DNA from: an uncultured Bacteroidales bacterium
GTDB taxonomy: Bacteria; Bacteroidota; Bacteroidia; Bacteroidales; UBA4417
DNA: 64,000 bases
NCBI GenBank assembly: GCA_903879715.1
Contig: CAIRMR010000209.1
Location: 1 to 64,000 of the forward strand
Direction of reading: 5' to 3'
The first letter of the stretch is position 1. Every line of letters starts with the position of its first letter. The notes beneath the pieces were generated by a model. The model made no database searches. It saw only the letters and a program-made list of their open reading frames with translations, and was not told the DNA's origin. The translations under genes and the position numbers were made by a program. Below, piece after piece: positions 3,479 through 54,352 of the stretch.

Positions 3479-3528
3479 TGTTTTTGAATGTTATTAGTTA
3501 ATCGTTATTAGTAATTCGTTTATAAATA

Positions 3529-3834
3529 GTCGGAAGTCGGAAGTCGGGAGTCGGAAGTGTTTCAACCGACATAAATCTTCGTTTCGTTTAAGTTTTTTAT
3601 TCATTTATTTTGTGATAGGCTTTTATGGAAGTGATTTGTCGGAAGTCGGGAGTCGGAAGTCGGAAGGGTTTCAACCGATATAAATCTTCGTTCCGTTTAA
3701 GTTTTTTATTCATTGATCTTGTGATAGGCTTTTATGGAAGTGATTTGTCGGAAGTCAGAAGTCGGGAGTCGGAAGGGTTTCAACCGATATAAATCTTCGT
3801 TCCGTTTAAGTTTTTTATTCATTGATCTTGTGAT
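3529..3834. repeat. 109-bp tandem repeat, about 2.8 copies
   Basis: Units begin at 3529, 3638 and 3747, an exact 109-bp period. Each unit has a GTCGGAAGTCGGGAGTCGG block, then TTTCAACCGAYATAAATCTTCG and an AT-rich tail ending TTGTGATAGGC. The units differ by a few substitutions and by rearrangement of the heptamer block. The array sits between ilvC and the second ilvN, inside the operon. Confidence 0.9.
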
Positions 3835-3884
3835 TTTTATTCTTTTGAATTTATTCCATTTTATTAGCTTTTCAAAGATTCCAG

Positions 3885-4055
3885 TTTCGGTCTTCCGTCT
3901 TCGGACTCCCAGCTTCCGACTTCCGACTTCCGTCTTCCAGCTTCTTACTTCCGTCTTCTGTCTTCCGACTTCCGTCTTCCGACTTCCGACTTCCGACTTC
4001 CAGCTTCTTACTTCCGTCTTCCGATTTCCGTCTTCCGACTTCCAACCCCTTTTCC
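3885..4055. repeat. Heptamer array CTTCCGN / complement of GTCGGAAG
   Basis: About 170 bp of loosely tandem 7-bp units (CTTCCGA, CTTCCGT, CTTCCAG). This is the reverse complement of the heptamers that begin each 109-bp unit at 3529-3834, so the gap can fold into a long imperfect hairpin. The same words recur at 31904-32043, 44018-44040, 53972-54030 and 54128-54320. Open frames through it are repeat translations and were not called as genes. Confidence 0.85.
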
Positions 4056-7259: not shown

Positions 7260-9089
7260 TTACTCAATCATACGCACGGCACCTTTATCGGCCGATGAAA
7301 CATGCATGGCGTAAATTTTAAGCGCATCCGAAATATTTCTCTTCCTGGTTTGCGGTGTATAAGCAGCTTTTGCACGTGAGGTTTCATTGTCCTTTCTGCG
7401 TTTCAGTTCTTCCTCACTTACATTCAGATTGATTGCGCGTGTGGCAATATCAATTACTATGGTATCGTTATCTTTTATCAGGGCAATTTCACCGCCAGCT
7501 GCTGCTTCGGGGGAAACATGGCCGATGGAAAGCCCTGAAGTGCCTCCAGAAAAGCGACCATCAGTTATCAACGCACAAACCTTATCAAGTTTCAGGGTTT
7601 TAAGGTAGGAAGTCGGGTAAAGCATTTCCTGCATCCCGGGACCGCCTTTGGGGCCTTCGTAACGGATAACCACAACATCACCGGCATTTACCTTTCCACT
7701 CAATATTCCATGAACAGCTTCATCCTGCGATTCAAAAACCCTTGCTGTTCCTTCGAAATGAAACAGAGCGGGATCGATTCCGGCGGTTTTTACGATACTG
7801 CCTTTTGTGGCAATGTTTCCGTATAAAACGGCAAGTCCGCCATCCTGGAAATAGGCATGTTCAACATCACGGATACATCCCGAAACACGGTTATCATCCA
7901 GTTTTGTATAACGGGTATCCTGCGATCCCATTACCAGGTTTATTTTATGAGCCGGCGCGCTGCTGAATATCTGCATGGCTTCGGCAGTAACATCGGTACT
8001 TAGAATATCAAAAGCATTTATTGCCTGTCCCAGGTTTAACCCATCAACACGGTAAGCTGAAGTGTCCATAAGGCCGGCACGGTTCAATTCGCCAAGCAGC
8101 GACAGGATTCCTCCCGCGCGGTTAACATCCTCGACATGGTACTGTGAGCTAGGCGAAACTTTGCAAAGGCAAGGCGTTTTCCGCGAAAGCTCATCGATAT
8201 CCTTCATCGTGAAATCAACGCCGGCTTCGTGAGCAACGGCAAGTAAGTGTAGAACTGTATTGGTTGATCCTCCCATGGCAATATCCAATGTCATGGCATT
8301 TGTAAATGCTTTTTTGGATGCAACCTGCCTTGGAAGTACAGTTTCGTTTCCTTTATCATAATATTCGCGGGCCATTTCAACAATACGGCCGGCAGCTTTT
8401 TCGAAAAGTTTCAGCCTGTTGACATGCGTTGCGACAACAGTTCCGTTTCCGGGAAGTGACAAGCCCAAAGCTTCGGTAAGGCAGTTCATGCTGTTGGCGG
8501 TAAACATTCCGGAGCAGGAACCACAGGTCGGGCAAGCGGATTGCTCAACTTTGGCAAGATCAGTATCGCTAACGCTATCGTCGGCACCCATAACCATGGC
8601 ATCAACCAGGTCGAGTTTGCGATCGCCCATAATGCCGGCTTCCATTGGTCCGCCGGAAACAAAAATGGTTGGAACGTTCAGCCTCATGGCAGCCATCAGC
8701 ATGCCGGGAGTAATTTTGTCGCAATTGCTGATGCAGATAAGCGCATCGGCTTTATGAGCATTCACCATGTATTCAACACTGTCGGCAATCAGGTCGCGCG
8801 ATGGAAGTGAATACAACATACCGTCGTGGCCCATGGCAATACCGTCGTCAATGGCAATGGTATTGAACTCGGCGGCAAAACATCCTTGCGCTTCGATCAG
8901 TCCTTTAACATACTGCCCGATAGAATGCAGATGCGCGTGCCCGGGAACAAACTGGGTGAACGAATTGGCAATGGCGATAAGCGGTTTGCCAAACTGCTCT
9001 TCTTTCATTCCGTTTGCACGCCAGAGGCTTCGGGCTCCTGCCATTTTACGGCCTTTGGTTGATGTATCGCTGCGAAGTGGGATCTGCAT
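7260..9089 (-). CDS. ilvD: Dihydroxy-acid dehydratase
   Basis: Dehydrates 2,3-dihydroxy-isovalerate and -methylvalerate to the 2-oxo acids. The 609-residue protein follows the E. coli IlvD pattern closely (HGRxMAGAR-like [29 protein letters not shown]). Cluster cysteines are visible in NCDK (Cys123) and in CPTCGSC (186, 189, 192), fitting the oxygen-sensitive [4Fe-4S] type. Start placed at 9089 ([13 protein letters not shown]) rather than 27 bases upstream, because relatives begin here. It is the first structural gene of the operon. The leader peptide and attenuator lie at 9362-9497, about 275 bp upstream. Confidence 0.95.
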
Positions 9090-31903: not shown

Positions 31904-32043
31904 TAGTCGGAAGTTGGAAGACGGGAGAAGGAAGTAACACTAATATCTCTTTTCTCCAAAATAAGCGGATACCATTTGCCATTTTCTTCCGTCTTCCGTC
32001 TTCCGTCTTCTGACTTCTGACTTCCGTCTTCTGTCTTTTCGAA
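31904..32043. repeat. Heptamer words AGTCGGAAG / CTTCCGTCTT between lspA and atpD
   Basis: AGTCGGAAGTTGGAAGACGGGAG (31904-31929) and CTTCCGTCTTCCGTCTTCTGACTTC (31986-32022) face each other as an inverted pair. It is the same family as the arrays at 3529-4055 and 53972-54320. Confidence 0.75.
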
Positions 32044-36639: not shown

Positions 36640-37234
36640 TAAATTATAATATAAAAATTGATGGAGTATGTGGGATTGAAGGAGTTAAAATTCGATTTTG
36701 CCGGTGTTTTAGTCGGAGTGCGACTTTGAGTAGTTTACAAATTCAGCAACGATTTCTTTTGAAATTACATTACCTGAATTTTGAAATACACGATTCCAAT
36801 TTTGAAATTACATGACTTCAATTTTGAAAATGCATGAAATATTTTAAGACTTCTACCTCTAATTCATGACTTAACAAGTTATGTCAGCCATAAAAAAAAC
36901 CTATAATTTTTTACTTGAAGGGGCAACAACCTGAAATCCCCATCTGCTTTTTATGTAAATGGGACTTTGAATTGAAAAGATTATTTGGCTTTACTATAAA
37001 TCTAGCACAATAAACTGTAAGATTCTACTTGTAATTGAAGTTCTAAAGAAAAAAAGAAATAAAAATGTTTCACATCGGCAAACACCAGATTATTCAAAAT
37101 TCAGAACATTTGATTGCTGAGTAAACAAAAAAAATCAGATTCTTTCTAATTGTTGTAATACCTTTTTCAAACTATCATTTTCAACAATTCAGGAAGTTAA
37201 TAACAAACATGCAATCACAGATAGAACAATACAA
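36640..37234. other. Intergenic region, no gene recognised
   Basis: About 600 bp of AT-rich sequence. It has repeated TTTTGAAAWWCAYGA words at 36779-36840 (AATTTTGAAATACACGA, AATTTTGAAATTACATGA, AATTTTGAAAATGCATGA) and a short hairpin AGTCG...CGACT at 36711-36727. No convincing ORF, tRNA or riboswitch was seen. Confidence 0.4.
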
Positions 37235-37380
37235 CTTTCCATGTGTCTCTTTTTTAATTTTTACGGGTCACATGGAATTATTAACGTCTTGCTTATTTTT
37301 AAAGGTGTTAATGAGCTAAAGGTTCGCCATGAATAATCATCCCTCTGTATGGCAATTTATTGTCATGGCTCGTTTCATTT
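37235..37380. repeat. Partial copy of the double-hairpin dispersed repeat
   Basis: CCATGTG...TTTTTACGGGTCACATGG (37238-37275) and a second hairpin around GCCATGAATA...TTGTCATGGC (37328-37373) match the layout at 15782-15885. It ends at the stop codon of the membrane thioredoxin-like gene. Confidence 0.7.
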
Positions 37381-37383
37381 AAA

Positions 37384-38271
37384 TTAGTTTTTTAGTAATT
37401 CATTAATCAGTTTAACCCGTTCGTCAAAATATTTATCCGAAGCGCCCATCTGAAATCCCCAATACGTTGATACGATTTCGCCTTTTTTGTTTAAAACTAT
37501 ATCAACTGGCATGGACGTAATCCCTAATTCTTTTCTCAATTTTAAATCCTTATCAATATAGGTTTTAATCGTGACTTTATATTTTGCGAGGAATGCGGGT
37601 AATTCATTCATTGAATGGTCAACATCGCAATACACGCCTATAATCTCAACATCATTACGGTTGCTAAAGGCAGATTTTAATTTTTCGAGTGTCGGAAACT
37701 TCGCACGACAGGGCCGACAATTCATAAAATAGAAATCCAGTAACACCACTTTGCCATTGAAACGGCTTTGCTCAATGGTATCGCCGCTTTGGGTTCGTAG
37801 CAGGGAATAGTTCACTTGTTTTAGTTTCGGAACAAAAATATCAGCCTGATCTTTGTATTCACTTTTTGGAATAAATACCAGGTTTATATAAAGAAGTATT
37901 GGTATGCTCAGGGTTAAGGCAGCATAAAAACCCTTGTTCCGTACTAACACATTAAATCCAAGATAAAAGCCAACGATTTTAAGCAATGTATTCACCGGAA
38001 AAATTTCAGGGAAATTGAGGTGGTTTACATAACCACCCATTGAGTCCAGGAGAATCGCTTCAATGAGAAATAAAAATGCTATAAGATTTGATAGTGTTTT
38101 TGTTCTGCTCTTTATCAGGCACAATACTAATCCCGATAAAAAATAAATCCCGAATGATATGAGATTCCCGACTCGTAAATCCGATTTTCCAAAAACGATG
38201 TAATTATGAAGAGCATAAATGCCAAAACCTGATAAAATAACAAGTAAAATGGGAATTATTTTTTTTTTCAC
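37384..38271 (-). CDS. Membrane-anchored TlpA/thioredoxin-like protein
   Basis: A 295-residue protein. The first ~135 residues form four or five hydrophobic segments, and residues 150-295 are a thioredoxin-like fold with the active site CRPC (YFMNCRPCRAKFP, about 182-194), preceded by GKVVLLDFYF. The cis-Pro motif SMPVDIVLN follows. It would act on the periplasmic side as a disulfide reductase or oxidase. It starts with GTG, 48 bp after the fulvocin C-related gene, and is probably co-transcribed with it. The neighbour is Cys-rich, so a role in forming or editing its disulfides is a reasonable inference. Confidence 0.82.
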   Translation of the reverse strand: MKKKIIPILLVILSGFGIYALHNYIVFGKSDLRVGNLISFGIYFLSGLVLCLIKSRTKTLSNLIAFLFLIEAILLDSMGGYVNHLNFPEIFPVNTLLKIVGFYLGFNVLVRNKGFYAALTLSIPILLYINLVFIPKSEYKDQADIFVPKLKQVNYSLLRTQSGDTIEQSRFNGKVVLLDFYFMNCRPCRAKFPTLEKLKSAFSNRNDVEIIGVYCDVDHSMNELPAFLAKYKVTIKTYIDKDLKLRKELGITSMPVDIVLNKKGEIVSTYWGFQMGASDKYFDERVKLINELLKN

Positions 38272-38319
38272 CAGTAAAATATTAAGTGTTTATAGTCTTA
38301 GAAGAAAACAATATGTTCA

Positions 38320-38940
38320 TTACACTGCAAGCGAGCATCTCCCATCACAAACATACCACATCATAAATCCACAATCACGAACCTCATGACAAATTGCATT
38401 TGTATCGCAAGAATTACAGCTAAATGCGCTTGTGCTGCAACAATTACAGTTCTTCACGCCAGGATCAACATACGAAGGAGATATAGAAGAAGACTTGGCA
38501 ATATTATTTTTTGAGTTGAAACTGTTTATACTAAAGGCAATTTTTATAATTTCTTCTTTAGTAAAATAATTTAATCCTTCGATACACCAGTTTTTGGCGA
38601 AGGAAGTAAAAGATTTAGAGTCTTTATTAGAATCTTCAAATGTACTGATATTTATAAATGTATTTAATTTTTCTATATGATTGCGCTGTTCATCAGTAAG
38701 TGTATCGGATTTTATAAGTGCTGTAAACCTTTGTTTCCATAAGGTTGTTTTTTCTGCAGGAGATAAAAGATTATAAGCTAGTCGCTGATCGCTTTGGGAG
38801 GATAACTGTATAACTTCGTTTATTAGTTTTAAATTCACAGTATTATTGTTTGATGTTAAATCAACATTTGTTTCTTTTTCACATTGTGTGAAGGCGAAAA
38901 GCATTAAAATGCATGTCAAAAGTGCGAATTTCATTTTCAT
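38320..38940 (-). CDS. Fulvocin C-related Cys-rich lipoprotein (bacteriocin-like)
   Basis: A 206-residue protein. Residues 1-20 are a lipoprotein-type signal (ALLTCILMLFAFTQC, lipid Cys at 20), residues 21-155 are a helical, low-Cys region, and the last ~43 residues hold nine Cys. That tail (NCNCCSTSAFSCNSC...RDCGFMMWYVCDGRC) follows the pattern of fulvocin C, the disulfide-rich Myxococcus bacteriocin (NCSCSTASDYC...GCGTGWVYCAC), and of the Bacteroidetes fulvocin C-related family. Start set at ATG 38940. A longer frame begins inside the promoter's -7 box. It is preceded by three LytTR-like repeats and a consensus promoter, and followed by a membrane thioredoxin-like gene. Killing activity is not established. 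Confidence 0.75.
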   Translation of the reverse strand: MKMKFALLTCILMLFAFTQCEKETNVDLTSNNNTVNLKLINEVIQLSSQSDQRLAYNLLSPAEKTTLWKQRFTALIKSDTLTDEQRNHIEKLNTFINISTFEDSNKDSKSFTSFAKNWCIEGLNYFTKEEIIKIAFSINSFNSKNNIAKSSSISPSYVDPGVKNCNCCSTSAFSCNSCDTNAICHEVRDCGFMMWYVCDGRCSLAV

Positions 38941-38972
38941 AACAGAAAGTTTTTCAGGTGAATGTTTTTCAG

Positions 38973-39002
38973 CAAATATATAGTGCATTATTTAATTGTC
39001 AA
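38973..39002 (-). promoter_or_regulatory. Promoter of the fulvocin C-related operon
   Basis: TTG at 39002-39000, exactly 19 bp, TATATTTG at 38980-38973: a full match to the Bacteroidetes consensus and to the ilv and trp promoters here. Transcription would begin near 38966 and the ATG is at 38940. Confidence 0.8.
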
Positions 39003-39021
39003 CAAATTCTAATGCAAAAAA

Positions 39022-39072
39022 GCTAACTCCGGCGTTTTAGAAGCTAACTCCATTGTTCTGGCAGTTAACTCC
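39022..39072 (-). promoter_or_regulatory. Three 21-bp-spaced direct repeats, candidate LytTR binding sites
   Basis: On the minus strand GGAGTTAAC (39072-39064), GGAGTTAGC (39051-39043) and GGAGTTAGC (39030-39022) recur with an exact 21-bp period; a weaker fourth unit lies near 39085-39093. LytTR regulators bind direct 9-bp boxes with a GTT core separated by about 12 bp, that is a 21-bp period. The nearest unit is about 20 bp upstream of the -33 element, a place suited to activation. Confidence 0.75.
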
Positions 39073-39118
39073 GCTGTTACTGTGGTTATCCTTATTTTAA
39101 ATCTCCTTAATTTGTTCA

Positions 39119-39505
39119 TTATTCCCTTTGTTGATTTGCATATATTGGGGGGGGGGGGGGTAACATACTGTTTATTAGCTTATTAAATTTAACTTTCCTG
39201 TAACAAGCTACATTTACAGATAAATTGTTTGTTAATTCAATGATGCATGTCTTGTGGTTGTATTTTTTAACATGTCGAAGATTTATTAATCTTGCGGTGT
39301 GGCATCGATAGAAATGCATCTCTGATAAATAGGATTCTAGTTCAGTTAAAGTATGATAAACCCTGAATATAAGTCCCTCTACAAGTTGAGCGTTTACCTT
39401 GCTGTTTTCAATAAAAAAATAAATGATGTCAGATGATTCAATAAGTTCAAGGCCGAATTTGGTTTTGAGGGGAATACGGAACTGCTTCGCTATTATAATA
39501 TCCAT
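39119..39505 (-). CDS. LytTR-domain-only DNA-binding regulator
   Basis: A 128-residue protein that is essentially one LytTR domain (about residues 12-112). It has ESSDIIYFFIENSKV at the first strands, the signature FYRCHTARLINLRHVKKY near 63-80, and CYRKVKFNKLI at the end. There is no receiver or membrane part. Its last residues before the stop include a Pro run made by 14 consecutive C on the coding strand (39147-39160). It lies directly upstream of a promoter with three LytTR-type repeats, so it is the likely regulator of the fulvocin C-related operon. The input signal is unknown. Confidence 0.85.
   Translation of the reverse strand: MDIIIAKQFRIPLKTKFGLELIESSDIIYFFIENSKVNAQLVEGLIFRVYHTLTELESYLSEMHFYRCHTARLINLRHVKKYNHKTCIIELTNNLSVNVACYRKVKFNKLINSMLPPPPPIYANQQRE
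39147..39160. repeat. Homopolymer of 14 G within the LytTR gene
   Basis: A run of 14 G (C on the coding strand) codes for the Pro run at the LytTR C-terminus. The tract has a length that makes slipped-strand change likely. It may equally carry a sequencing or assembly length error. Confidence 0.95.
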
Positions 39506-39674
39506 TATAAAAGTTATTTATATTTAAAACAAATTATCTATAATAATTTTGGCAACTAAGATACATATTTATTGATAACCAAATCCTTTTTCCAATTGCA
39601 TTAATCTTTCCTAAAAGAAAAATCCCATTTACCTTTCCAAGCAAACGGGACTTAAGAATTCAAATAATCAATTT

Positions 39675-41054
39675 CTATTTGATTTCCACCACCTTATATC
39701 CCCAAGCCTCTAAATTCATAGGCTCTTTCTTTACAATTTTGGTTTCGGCTCCTGTAAAAGCATCTTTATAAGTTCCATTTACAACATCACCTTTCACTGC
39801 AACCGATACCGGAGCAGCAGATAAGTTGACTATGACCAGGACTTTTATATCGCCTTTTGCACGCATAAAGCTAAGCACCTTTGTTGGTTCGGTATTTTTT
39901 ACTTTTTCGAAAGTGCCGCCATAAGGAGGATTAAATAAGGCTTCATTGCCGTGTTTCAGTTTGTTCAGCGTCTGGTAAAAAAGAGTCAGCTCCAGGTTAG
40001 ACCAATTGATGGTGTCTTTAACAAAGAATTGAAGACGTTTTTTCAATCCGGCTTCCTGGCCGCTGTAGATCAAGGGCGTACCTGGAAGTGTGTAGCTAAG
40101 CACAGCAAACGCATTTTCGCCTGCTCCGAATTTTTCCTGTGCGGTTCCGTTCCATGAATTTTCGTCATGGTTGGTGATAAAATTCATTTGCATGGCGTAT
40201 TTCGGTAAAATGGAATCCATTTTTATTACCTGGCGAACAATCTGGTTAACTGAATCTTTTCCCTGGGCTACTTTATGCATTACACTATGCATGCCCCAGC
40301 CGTAATTGGCATCGAAAGCTTTTCTGCAGAGTTCGGGATGGTCTTCATTTTCGGCCAGCATAAACATGGGTTTTACTTTTTCGAGTTCTACCCGTGCAGT
40401 ATCCCAGAAATCTACCGGAACTTCTCCGGCTACATCGCAGCGGAAACCATCAATATCACAGTTGGTTACCCAGTATTTCATGGCATCGATCATAGCTGTG
40501 CGCATATCGTTGTTTGCATAATTAAGTTTGGCACAGTCGGTCCAATCGAAAGGAGTAATCATTTTCCCGGTGCTGTCCTTAATATACCAGTCGGGATGTT
40601 CGGTAATCCAGTTATTATCCCTGGCTGAATGGTTGGCTACCCAGTCGATGATGACTTTAAATCCCATTTCGTGCGCTTTGGTAACCAGCGCTTTAAAATC
40701 GGCTTCGGTCCCGAATTCAGGATTGACTCCTTTATAATCTTTTACTGAGTAATAGCTTCCAAGGCTGGTTTTGAATCCTGCAGGAACTTTACGGTCCACT
40801 ACACCGATAGGATGTATGGGCATAAACCACAGAATATCAACACCCAGTTCTTTCAGGCGCGGAAGGTTGGCTTCGAAGGCTTTGAAAGTACCTTCGGGTG
40901 TGTACTGGCGGACGTTAACTTCATAAATTACAGCGTTTTTAGCCCATTCGGGATAATTGGCTTTAACATCGGTAACAGCAGTTTTTGTTTTGCATGCCGT
41001 AAAAAGAAAGGAGATGCAGCAAAGCATAAAGATGGATTTGGTTAGGGTTTTCAT
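39675..41054 (-). CDS. GH13 alpha-amylase-family lipoprotein
   Basis: A 459-residue protein with a lipoprotein-type signal (FMLCCISFLFTACKTK), followed by a GH13 barrel. The active site residues are Asp in DGFRCDVAGEV, Glu in MLAENEDH and Asp in TNHDENSW, with IDWVANHSA as the conserved region I. It would hydrolyse alpha-1,4-glucans or maltodextrins at the cell surface or periplasm. It is the third gene of a minus-strand set with the GH31 and GH13 enzymes, 98 bp after GH31. No SusC/SusD pair lies in the window. Confidence 0.88.
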   Translation of the reverse strand: MKTLTKSIFMLCCISFLFTACKTKTAVTDVKANYPEWAKNAVIYEVNVRQYTPEGTFKAFEANLPRLKELGVDILWFMPIHPIGVVDRKVPAGFKTSLGSYYSVKDYKGVNPEFGTEADFKALVTKAHEMGFKVIIDWVANHSARDNNWITEHPDWYIKDSTGKMITPFDWTDCAKLNYANNDMRTAMIDAMKYWVTNCDIDGFRCDVAGEVPVDFWDTARVELEKVKPMFMLAENEDHPELCRKAFDANYGWGMHSVMHKVAQGKDSVNQIVRQVIKMDSILPKYAMQMNFITNHDENSWNGTAQEKFGAGENAFAVLSYTLPGTPLIYSGQEAGLKKRLQFFVKDTINWSNLELTLFYQTLNKLKHGNEALFNPPYGGTFEKVKNTEPTKVLSFMRAKGDIKVLVIVNLSAAPVSVAVKGDVVNGTYKDAFTGAETKIVKKEPMNLEAWGYKVVEIK

Positions 41055-52786: not shown

Positions 52787-53968
52787 ATGAAATCTAATTC
52801 TCAATCAAAACCAGGATACTACGGGAAATTTGGCGGCGCTTATATCCCCGAATTACTATTTAATAACGTGGACGAACTGCAGAAAAACTATGAAAGAATA
52901 ATCCGGACCACCGAATTCCAGAAACAGTTTAAAACACTGCTTAAGGATTATGTCGGGCGACCAACGCCACTCTATTTTTCAGATGCTCTATCTGCTAAGT
53001 ACAAAGCCAAGATCTTTCTGAAACGCGAAGACCTTAACCATACGGGCGCACACAAGATCAACAATGCCTTGGGACAGGCTTTGCTTGCCAAAATGATGGG
53101 CAAGCAGAAAATTGTAGCCGAAACCGGTGCCGGTCAGCACGGTGTAGCAGTTGCAACGGCCTGCACTTTACTCGGTTTATCCTGCGTGGTTTTTATGGGC
53201 GAAACTGATATCGCAAGGCAGGCACCCAATGTAGCACGAATGAAAATGCTGGGAGCCACGGTTATTCCTTCGCTTAGCGGAACCAAAACGCTGAAAGATG
53301 CCACCAATGATGCCATCCGGTATTGGATAAATCATGCAGATGATACACATTACATTATTGGTTCGGTTGTAGGCCCGCACCCGTATCCGGATATTGTAGC
53401 CAAATTTCAATCTGTTATCAGCAAGGAAATCAAAATCCAGTTGAAGAAACAAACCGGCGATGCCGAACCGGATTATGTTATCGCTTGCGTAGGTGGAGGA
53501 AGTAATGCCGCCGGTGCATTCTATCATTTCCTGGGTTCAAAAAAGACTAAACTCATCGGTGCCGAAGCAGCTGGAATGGGCATTCATTCCCACGAAACAG
53601 CGGCTACTTTAATGGTTGGTTCTGTGGGGATAATTCACGGTGCGAAAACCTACCTGATGCAAAACAAGGATGGCCAGATAACTGAACCATACAGCATTTC
53701 CGCCGGTTTGGATTATCCTGGAATCGGCCCTTTACATGCTTATCTTCATGAAACAAAGCAAGCTACTTATTATGCCGTTACCGACCGCGAAGCACTGGAT
53801 GCGGCTAAAGAACTGATTCACCTGGATGGAATTATTCCCGCGCTCGAATCGGCTCACGCCTTTGCATTATTGCCAAAAATGAAGTTCAAGCCAAGCGATG
53901 TAGTTGTGATCAATCTTTCGGGAAGAGGCGATAAAGATATGGAGACGTATCTGAAGTTCATTTTGTAG
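52787..53968 (+). CDS. trpB: Tryptophan synthase beta chain
   Basis: A 393-residue PLP enzyme. The Schiff-base lysine is Lys90 in NHTGAHKINNALGQ, and the phosphate loop is VGGGSNAAGAF. KFGGAYIPELL opens the protein and EHLDYPGIGP-like SAGLDYPGIGP carries the conserved communication region; NLSGRGDKD is at the end. It condenses indole with serine. Its start lies in the second copy of a duplicated initiation region. Confidence 0.96.
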   Translation: MKSNSQSKPGYYGKFGGAYIPELLFNNVDELQKNYERIIRTTEFQKQFKTLLKDYVGRPTPLYFSDALSAKYKAKIFLKREDLNHTGAHKINNALGQALLAKMMGKQKIVAETGAGQHGVAVATACTLLGLSCVVFMGETDIARQAPNVARMKMLGATVIPSLSGTKTLKDATNDAIRYWINHADDTHYIIGSVVGPHPYPDIVAKFQSVISKEIKIQLKKQTGDAEPDYVIACVGGGSNAAGAFYHFLGSKKTKLIGAEAAGMGIHSHETAATLMVGSVGIIHGAKTYLMQNKDGQITEPYSISAGLDYPGIGPLHAYLHETKQATYYAVTDREALDAAKELIHLDGIIPALESAHAFALLPKMKFKPSDVVVINLSGRGDKDMETYLKFIL

Positions 53969-54352
53969 ATGGAAGACCGAGGACCGAAGTCGGAAGACGG
54001 AAGACGGAAGTCAGAAGACGGAAGAAAGAATTCGGAGTAGATAGAGTAATTAAGCATTTGCACACAATTAAATCATTCTAAAATTTAAAAGATAAGAAAC
54101 AACTGGTTAAGATGTCAGCAGGATCAGCTTCCGACTTCGGACTCCCATCTTCCAGCCTTTTTAACCATCCCCGGATAAAGATGAATTAAGAATTACGTGG
54201 GATTGGCTTCCGACTTCGGACTCCTGTCTTCCAGCCTTTTTAACCATCCCCGGATAAAGATGAATTAAGAATTACGTGGGATTGGCTTCCGACTTCGGAC
54301 TCCTGTCTTCCAGCCTTTTTAACCATACCTTCAACCATAAAACACACAAACC
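53969..54352. repeat. trpB-trpA gap: GACGGAAG heptamers and a 79-bp tandem repeat
   Basis: Heptamer words (GGAAGACGGAAG, GTCAGAAG) fill 53972-54030. From 54128 a 79-bp unit (CTTCCGACTTCGGACTCC, CTTCCAGCCTTTTTAACCAT, CGGATAAAGATGAATTAAG) repeats with starts at 54128, 54207 and 54286. The last unit is truncated at AACCATACC, near 54330. No gene or promoter was recognised. Confidence 0.9.

Follow-up and report, generated by a model that had tools for sequence, protein, structure and literature searches.

Sites bound by LytTR domains, as summarized in PMC4847170, consist of two direct or inverse repeats of 9–11 nt with spacers of 11–13 nt and do not share a consensus. Direct repeats are also read by the LytTR domains of SilA, AgrA and YpdB, which are two-component response regulators, each with two repeats and with box sequences other than those described below (PMC2766830, PMC4227749, PMC4847170); SilA sites comprise 10-bp repeats with an 11-bp spacer (PMC2766830). 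In Streptococcus mutans, the stand-alone LytTR proteins HdrR and BrsR activate bacteriocin genes through such repeats, and for HdrRM and BrsRM PMC6193735 places 9-bp direct repeats 12 bp apart before the promoter. There, the next gene encodes an inhibitor membrane protein and the repeats stand at the system's own operon promoter, mostly 10 bp from the −35 element; for the systems tabulated in that paper, the gap from repeat to −35 element is mostly 10–11 bp. Table 3 of PMC6193735 also contains LRS-like operons of Bacteroides (B. thetaiotaomicron and B. ovatus), which have 11-bp repeats with 11-bp spacers, set 11 bp from a downstream N19-TATCTTTG promoter, and according to the same source their regulators carry transmembrane segments and have an NfeD/DUF2154 membrane partner.

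We analysed a locus in an uncultured Bacteroidales bacterium that resembles these systems in several respects. In the window (the whole 64,000-nt stretch of DNA under analysis), an array of three GGAGTTARCT copies lies on the minus strand, within the 178 bp between the stop codon of a LytTR gene and the ATG of a fulvocin-C-related gene. The features of the locus, in the direction of transcription, are as follows.

39119..39505, minus strand: stand-alone LytTR protein, the candidate regulator (128 aa, without receiver domain; assigned from Pfam, fold model and Foldseek)
39147..39160, minus strand (G run on the plus strand): run of 14 C, a possible slippage site, beyond the domain in the 3'-terminal part of the LytTR gene
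39009..39119, minus strand: 36-aa ORF running through all three boxes, its ATG sharing one base with the stop of LytTR; contains TAELTAR / TMELASK / TPELAFL
39064..39072, minus strand: box 1, GGAGTTAAC, promoter-distal, with one mismatch; as a 10-mer it starts at 39072
39043..39051, minus strand: box 2, GGAGTTAGC, 21 bp from box 1; 10-mer start 39051
39022..39030, minus strand: box 3, GGAGTTAGC, promoter-proximal, 21 bp from box 2; 10-mer start 39030
38973..39002, minus strand: promoter match TTG-N19-TATATTTG (TTG at 39002–39000, 19 bp, TATATTTG at 38980–38973)
38320..38940, minus strand: fulvocin-C-related protein, 206 aa from the ATG at 38940, downstream of the promoter
37384..38271, minus strand: TlpA/ResA-like thioredoxin-fold protein, the probable second gene of the operon (Pfam AhpC-TSA 49.6 bits, Thioredoxin_8 47.2 bits)

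Start-to-start steps between the boxes are 21 and 21 bp, with no deviation. At the level of 9-mers, boxes 2 and 3 are identical and box 1 departs from them; the tenth base is common to all, and GGAGTTARCT is matched perfectly by three of three copies. Three 10-mers with 11-bp spacers, ending 18 bp from the TTG, have the layout of a LytTR operator. Across the three units, 12 of 21 columns are identical and nine of these fall inside the 10-bp core, so that the core is kept and the spacers have diverged. An earlier, sequence-only reading had placed boxes at 39022, 39043 and 39064, which is correct, with their minus-strand orientation missing; its description of them as exact 21-bp-spaced repeats holds for the spacing, but only two of the three 9-mers are identical. 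It had also set them some 20 bp ahead of a promoter, and they do precede it, by a measured 19 bp when 9-mers are counted or 18 bp when 10-mers are. Compared by eye with a 9-bp LytTR consensus, [TA][AC][CA]GTTN[AG][TG], the box GGAGTTARC fits at A3, GTT and R8 and does not at positions 1, 2 and 9. The promoter is the sole TTG-N17-21-TAnnTTTG match in the three stretches scanned (38900–39120, 39480–39700 and 37300–38400), and we take its TTG-N19-TATATTTG motif to be what is called a Bacteroidota-type promoter. The Bacteroides rows in table 3 of PMC6193735 have the 19-bp promoter layout likewise.

The protein encoded upstream of the array scores 49.6 bits against Pfam LytTR (PF04397; cut-off 22.6, E 4.7e-13), the match ending at residue 111 of 128. 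Its AlphaFold2 model has a mean pLDDT of 89, with low confidence in the stretch after the C run, and a Foldseek search with this model matched 3d6w (E 3.4e-8) and the LytTR domains of AgrA (4g4k, E 2.4e-7) and ComE. Within the FhRhHRS motif, R67 and H69 are kept, and T70 and A71 replace the AgrA DNA-contact residues N201 and S202. The bacterium's own genome holds 12 LytTR frames, among which only the one adjacent to the array is shorter than 240 aa, the other 11 measuring 241–417 aa. No membrane inhibitor gene lies next to the LytTR gene, whose neighbours are the fulvocin-related gene and, upstream, an amylase-like ORF (named by eye). Of 392 further genomes in the order, 4 have a match to the LytTR protein at E <= 1e-10 (best 46.9 bits), and the best match in 15 other genomes of the genus reaches E 8.7e-8 at 29% identity; because the matches in order and genus are few and weak, the gene looks accessory. 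Its own promoter region (39490–39700) contains no boxes, the best matches there carrying 3 mismatches in 10, and the best pair of 9-mers spaced by 20–22 bp does not exceed shuffled sequence (72 of 300 shuffles). The absence of boxes from this region means that there is no sign of autoregulation as in LytTR regulatory systems.

Downstream, the fulvocin-C-related protein scores 90.8 bits against NF033852 (curated cut-off 35), as computed on a 222-aa ORF. That ORF begins at 38988, upstream of the transcript start inferred from the promoter position, and we therefore prefer the 206-aa start. The fold model of this protein (pLDDT 55) is too poor for use. The TlpA-like protein has, as read by eye, a hydrophobic N-terminal part and a CRPC motif. 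Its gene begins with GTG, and a run of 10 T on the plus strand (an A run in the gene) lies at its start, at 38259–38268. From these families, the operon would encode a disulfide-rich, bacteriocin-like product together with its own thiol oxidoreductase, the bacteriocin label being taken from the family name. G+C content over the LytTR, fulvocin and TlpA-like genes is 0.335, versus 0.415 for the window, and the low value suggests that the three may have arrived together. Both gene assignments made from sequence alone, a LytTR protein adjacent to the array and a fulvocin-type gene downstream of it, are thus borne out by these domain scores and, for the LytTR protein, by the model and its structural matches.

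The most likely reading, to which we assign a probability of about 0.5, is that the three boxes form a putative operator array through which the upstream stand-alone LytTR protein controls the fulvocin-C-related operon. The LytTR protein would bind along a single face of the DNA to the 10-bp direct repeats, which recur every two helical turns; once bound, it would activate the promoter of the fulvocin-C-related and TlpA-like genes, with the third box possibly adding cooperativity. We infer the binding, activation rather than repression, and the identity of the regulator. Such an operator is plausible in view of the position of the array just upstream of the promoter match, in the 178-bp gap between the LytTR and fulvocin genes, and of dimensions like those given for SilA (PMC2766830). 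In its favour, too, are exact 21-bp steps that shuffled sequence does not reproduce, the kept core with diverged spacers, the low G+C shared by the three genes and the accessory look of the LytTR gene. The expectation that the repeats would have LytTR-like length and spacing likewise agrees with the published sites (PMC4847170, PMC2766830, PMC6193735). With HdrRM and BrsRM the locus shares a stand-alone LytTR protein, direct repeats before a promoter and a bacteriocin-like target; it differs in that the next gene is fulvocin-related, that the promoter region of the LytTR gene lacks boxes, that the repeats number three and that the gap measures 18–19 bp. It resembles the Bacteroides operons of table 3 in belonging to the Bacteroidia, in its 11-bp spacers and in the promoter type downstream, and differs from them in box length, box sequence and distance to the promoter, and in the transmembrane segments and membrane partner of their regulators (PMC6193735). 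What is established is the non-random array, the match to a promoter, the order of the genes and the LytTR fold of the upstream protein.

The distribution of fulvocin-related genes is sporadic (among relatives 3 of 99, among phylum genomes 4 of 395 and among class genomes 6 of 287, the own genome counted in each), and a scan of a collection of genome contigs with a two-sequence fulvocin alignment returned three loci. At the 11 other fulvocin loci (L016, L017/L018, L043, L044, L045, L080, L081 and L116–L119), profiles found no LytTR gene in any of the flanks examined, which extended from about 0.1 kb upstream (L043) up to several kb. The pairing of LytTR and fulvocin genes as a conserved module was accordingly rejected, as it occurs at one of 12 loci (the window and the 11 others) within these flanks. 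Several other NF033852 members adjoin DUF1573-like or TlpA-like genes (by eye), also without LytTR in the flanks examined. Eight regions upstream of fulvocin-related genes at other loci (two at L013 and one each at L014, L015, L016, L017, L044 and L045) showed no repeats spaced by 20–22 bp beyond shuffled sequence, the lowest value being 52 of 300. In one of these genomes (G127), a run of Val codons appears at L015 ~1303–1340, in the longest reading directly before the fulvocin-related gene; in another (G229, L017/L018) the fulvocin-related gene appears broken, with two pieces in separate matches, one of them with an internal stop.

The sequence-only reading had proposed that further 21-bp-spaced boxes be sought in the genome, and this search gave no second site. 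With up to 3 mismatches, the box pair has 11 matches in the own genome, two of them perfect (the array) and nine with 3 mismatches, one of which overlaps the array; a reversed-pattern control gave 38 matches. A regulon defined by repeated boxes was thereby rejected, since the box pair occurs once, and with a single site no regulon supports the LytTR reading. Near two other stand-alone LytTR genes (L041 and L078), repeats did not exceed shuffled sequence, two cases being too few for a conclusion. Plasmid records gave no LytTR or fulvocin match, viral contigs gave no match at the protein level, and none of the defence families was matched. The literature searched, judged by title and the start of the abstract, contained nothing on the regulation of fulvocin-type operons.

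Several results thus speak against an operator: the other fulvocin loci are without LytTR in the flanks examined, the site is single, and the LytTR promoter region has no boxes. The gap of 18–19 bp also compares with mostly 10–11 bp in the published systems (table of PMC6193735), two AgrA contact positions are changed, the word and period recur in three genomes without LytTR in the stretches examined, and one frame is open through the array. Activation of the operon by the adjacent LytTR protein, as first predicted, stands as to the LytTR domain, the fulvocin match and the dimensions of the repeats; it is weakened by the missing pairing in the flanks examined at 11 of 11 loci, by the lack of a second site, by a partial consensus fit and by the occurrence of the word elsewhere without LytTR.

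An alternative that we consider unlikely is that the array arose as a 21-bp tandem duplication without selective effect, like many intergenic repeats of this genome, and stands before a promoter by chance. The single 9-mer is not enriched, with 9 matches at up to one mismatch versus 8.0 expected in the window. The spaced triple has a pairwise score of 28/30, which none of 200 Markov-simulated 64-kb sequences attained at any period between 15 and 44; nor did any of 500 shuffles of the 178 intergenic bp, where the maximum was 25. The best box pair alone is weaker: as a 9-mer in 350 bp it was equalled by 7 of 300 shuffles, as a 10-mer in 178 bp by 1 of 300. The abundance of tandem repeats in the own genome makes shuffling a weak null and is also what favours a neutral origin: Tandem Repeats Finder reports 67 rows for the window, heptamer arrays and a 22-bp array among them, and a 459-kb sample (the window and 20 stretches of the own genome) contains 15 triple arrays of period 16–27 scoring at least 28, eight of them at period 21. 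Moreover, no orthologous locus was found that could show the array to be conserved. Against neutrality, the other seven period-21 arrays have subperiods, with short-period self-identities of 0.59–0.95 (at 7 or 12 bp) versus 0.29 for the box array, which is set apart by its kept core, diverged spacers and lack of a shorter subperiod. A neutral origin also makes both the position between LytTR gene and promoter and the LytTR-site period coincidences.

Repeats of other kinds were noted in the course of these searches. Degenerate GTCGGAA/CTTCCGA-type heptamer arrays lie at window positions 3528–4043, 31985–32037 and 53967–54326, some inside tandem units of 79–109 bp, and the 22-bp array (3.7 copies, 36757–36837) lies between TlpA-like and ileS-like genes. 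Telomere-word-like repeats resembling GGGGTTAGG, on contigs C164, C186 and C214 of the own genome (L007, L008 and L011), surfaced as 3-mismatch box matches.

A protein-coding array, which we judge distinctly unlikely, would be either a 36-aa ORF with three seven-residue repeats or the tail of the LytTR protein itself, read in a different frame as determined by the 14-C run. No stop codon interrupts the frame along the array, and its ATG overlaps the stop of the LytTR gene by a single base, as happens at 6 of 183 long ORFs. The box word also recurs elsewhere, in part within open frames that lend weight to coding. The 10-mer pair at 21 bp, with at most one mismatch, is present in 4 of 384 genomes of the order, the own genome included (reversed control, none): one contig of G514 has some ten degenerate units of 21 bp at its end, G558 has a short array, and G526 (L114) has the repeat inside a 364-aa ORF taken, by eye, for a REP-associated transposase. 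The word at its 21-bp period lies in an open reading of 375 codons in L114, and the repeats of L113, read by eye, give AELS heptads in which the Ser and Leu codons are synonymous variants. The stretches examined around these three arrays (L113–L115) contain no LytTR gene. As an order-wide conserved feature the array was rejected and these cases were not counted as support, since the other three have no LytTR in those stretches and at least two look coding. At L114 ~8100–8280, the transposase-like ORF of G526 carries C-terminal ELTASP repeats made from the box word.

Among viral contigs, the exact pair occurs in seven stretches, six of them (all except L121) in open frames of 287–1298 codons on either strand: those of 287 and 405 codons run on the same strand and those of 919 to 1298 codons on the opposite one. 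The seven sites are not independent, L122, L124 and L126 sharing one sequence context and L120 and L125 another. With six of seven sites in open frames, GAG-TTA-RCT at 21-bp steps is evidently also a product of seven-residue protein repeats. What counts against coding at our locus is the distribution of its identical columns over codon positions 1, 2 and 3 (3, 4 and 5 of 7), a third-position excess opposite to that expected from selection on protein. In addition, the 36-aa ORF has no family match, and its codon score of −0.127 bits per codon is lower than that of 99.8% of 915 equally long pieces cut from long ORFs; this score is not decisive, because the LytTR (−0.063) and fulvocin (0.015) genes are also low.

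The C run that could set the frame of such a tail is the longest G/C run of the genome; over 6.07 Mb just two more reach a length of 10, and neither exceeds it. In the one assembly at hand it is a long simple repeat of the kind that marks phase-variable (contingency) loci; with one assembly, its length of 14 could be an assembly error. Beyond the run, the assembled frame ends after 8 residues and the second after 15; the third, which contains the 36-aa ORF, continues for 45 residues and spans all boxes. As the run follows the LytTR domain, a slip would alter the tail and not the domain. We can imagine, as a long shot, that the run switches the form of the regulator: slippage into the frame given by 12 or 15 C would append to LytTR 45 residues read from the operator array, making the same DNA both docking site and tail and yielding within-clone on/off variation of the bacteriocin-like operon. 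If the operator reading is right, the 14-C run might in this way also let individual cells differ in the operon.

That the boxes serve another regulator, such as a longer LytTR-domain protein encoded elsewhere in the genome, is improbable: the 11 further LytTR frames (241–417 aa) could bind 21-bp-spaced repeats and fulvocin loci elsewhere are without a LytTR neighbour in the flanks examined, but an unlinked regulator should have several sites and the box pair is single in the genome.

Should an operator for the stand-alone LytTR protein prove to be the wrong reading, the locus would serve as a warning that seven-residue protein repeats also yield a 21-bp period and a GTT word. If it is the right one, the mechanism would be of a known kind, and new would be the combination: a Bacteroidales host, three boxes, no adjacent membrane inhibitor, a target of the fulvocin type and a regulator gene with a possible slippage site. 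The bacterium would then have a small LytTR activator without the membrane inhibitor that defines LRS. It would be a Bacteroidales example of such an activator, acting on a bacteriocin-like target through a compact operator, whereas systems of this type were characterised in streptococci.
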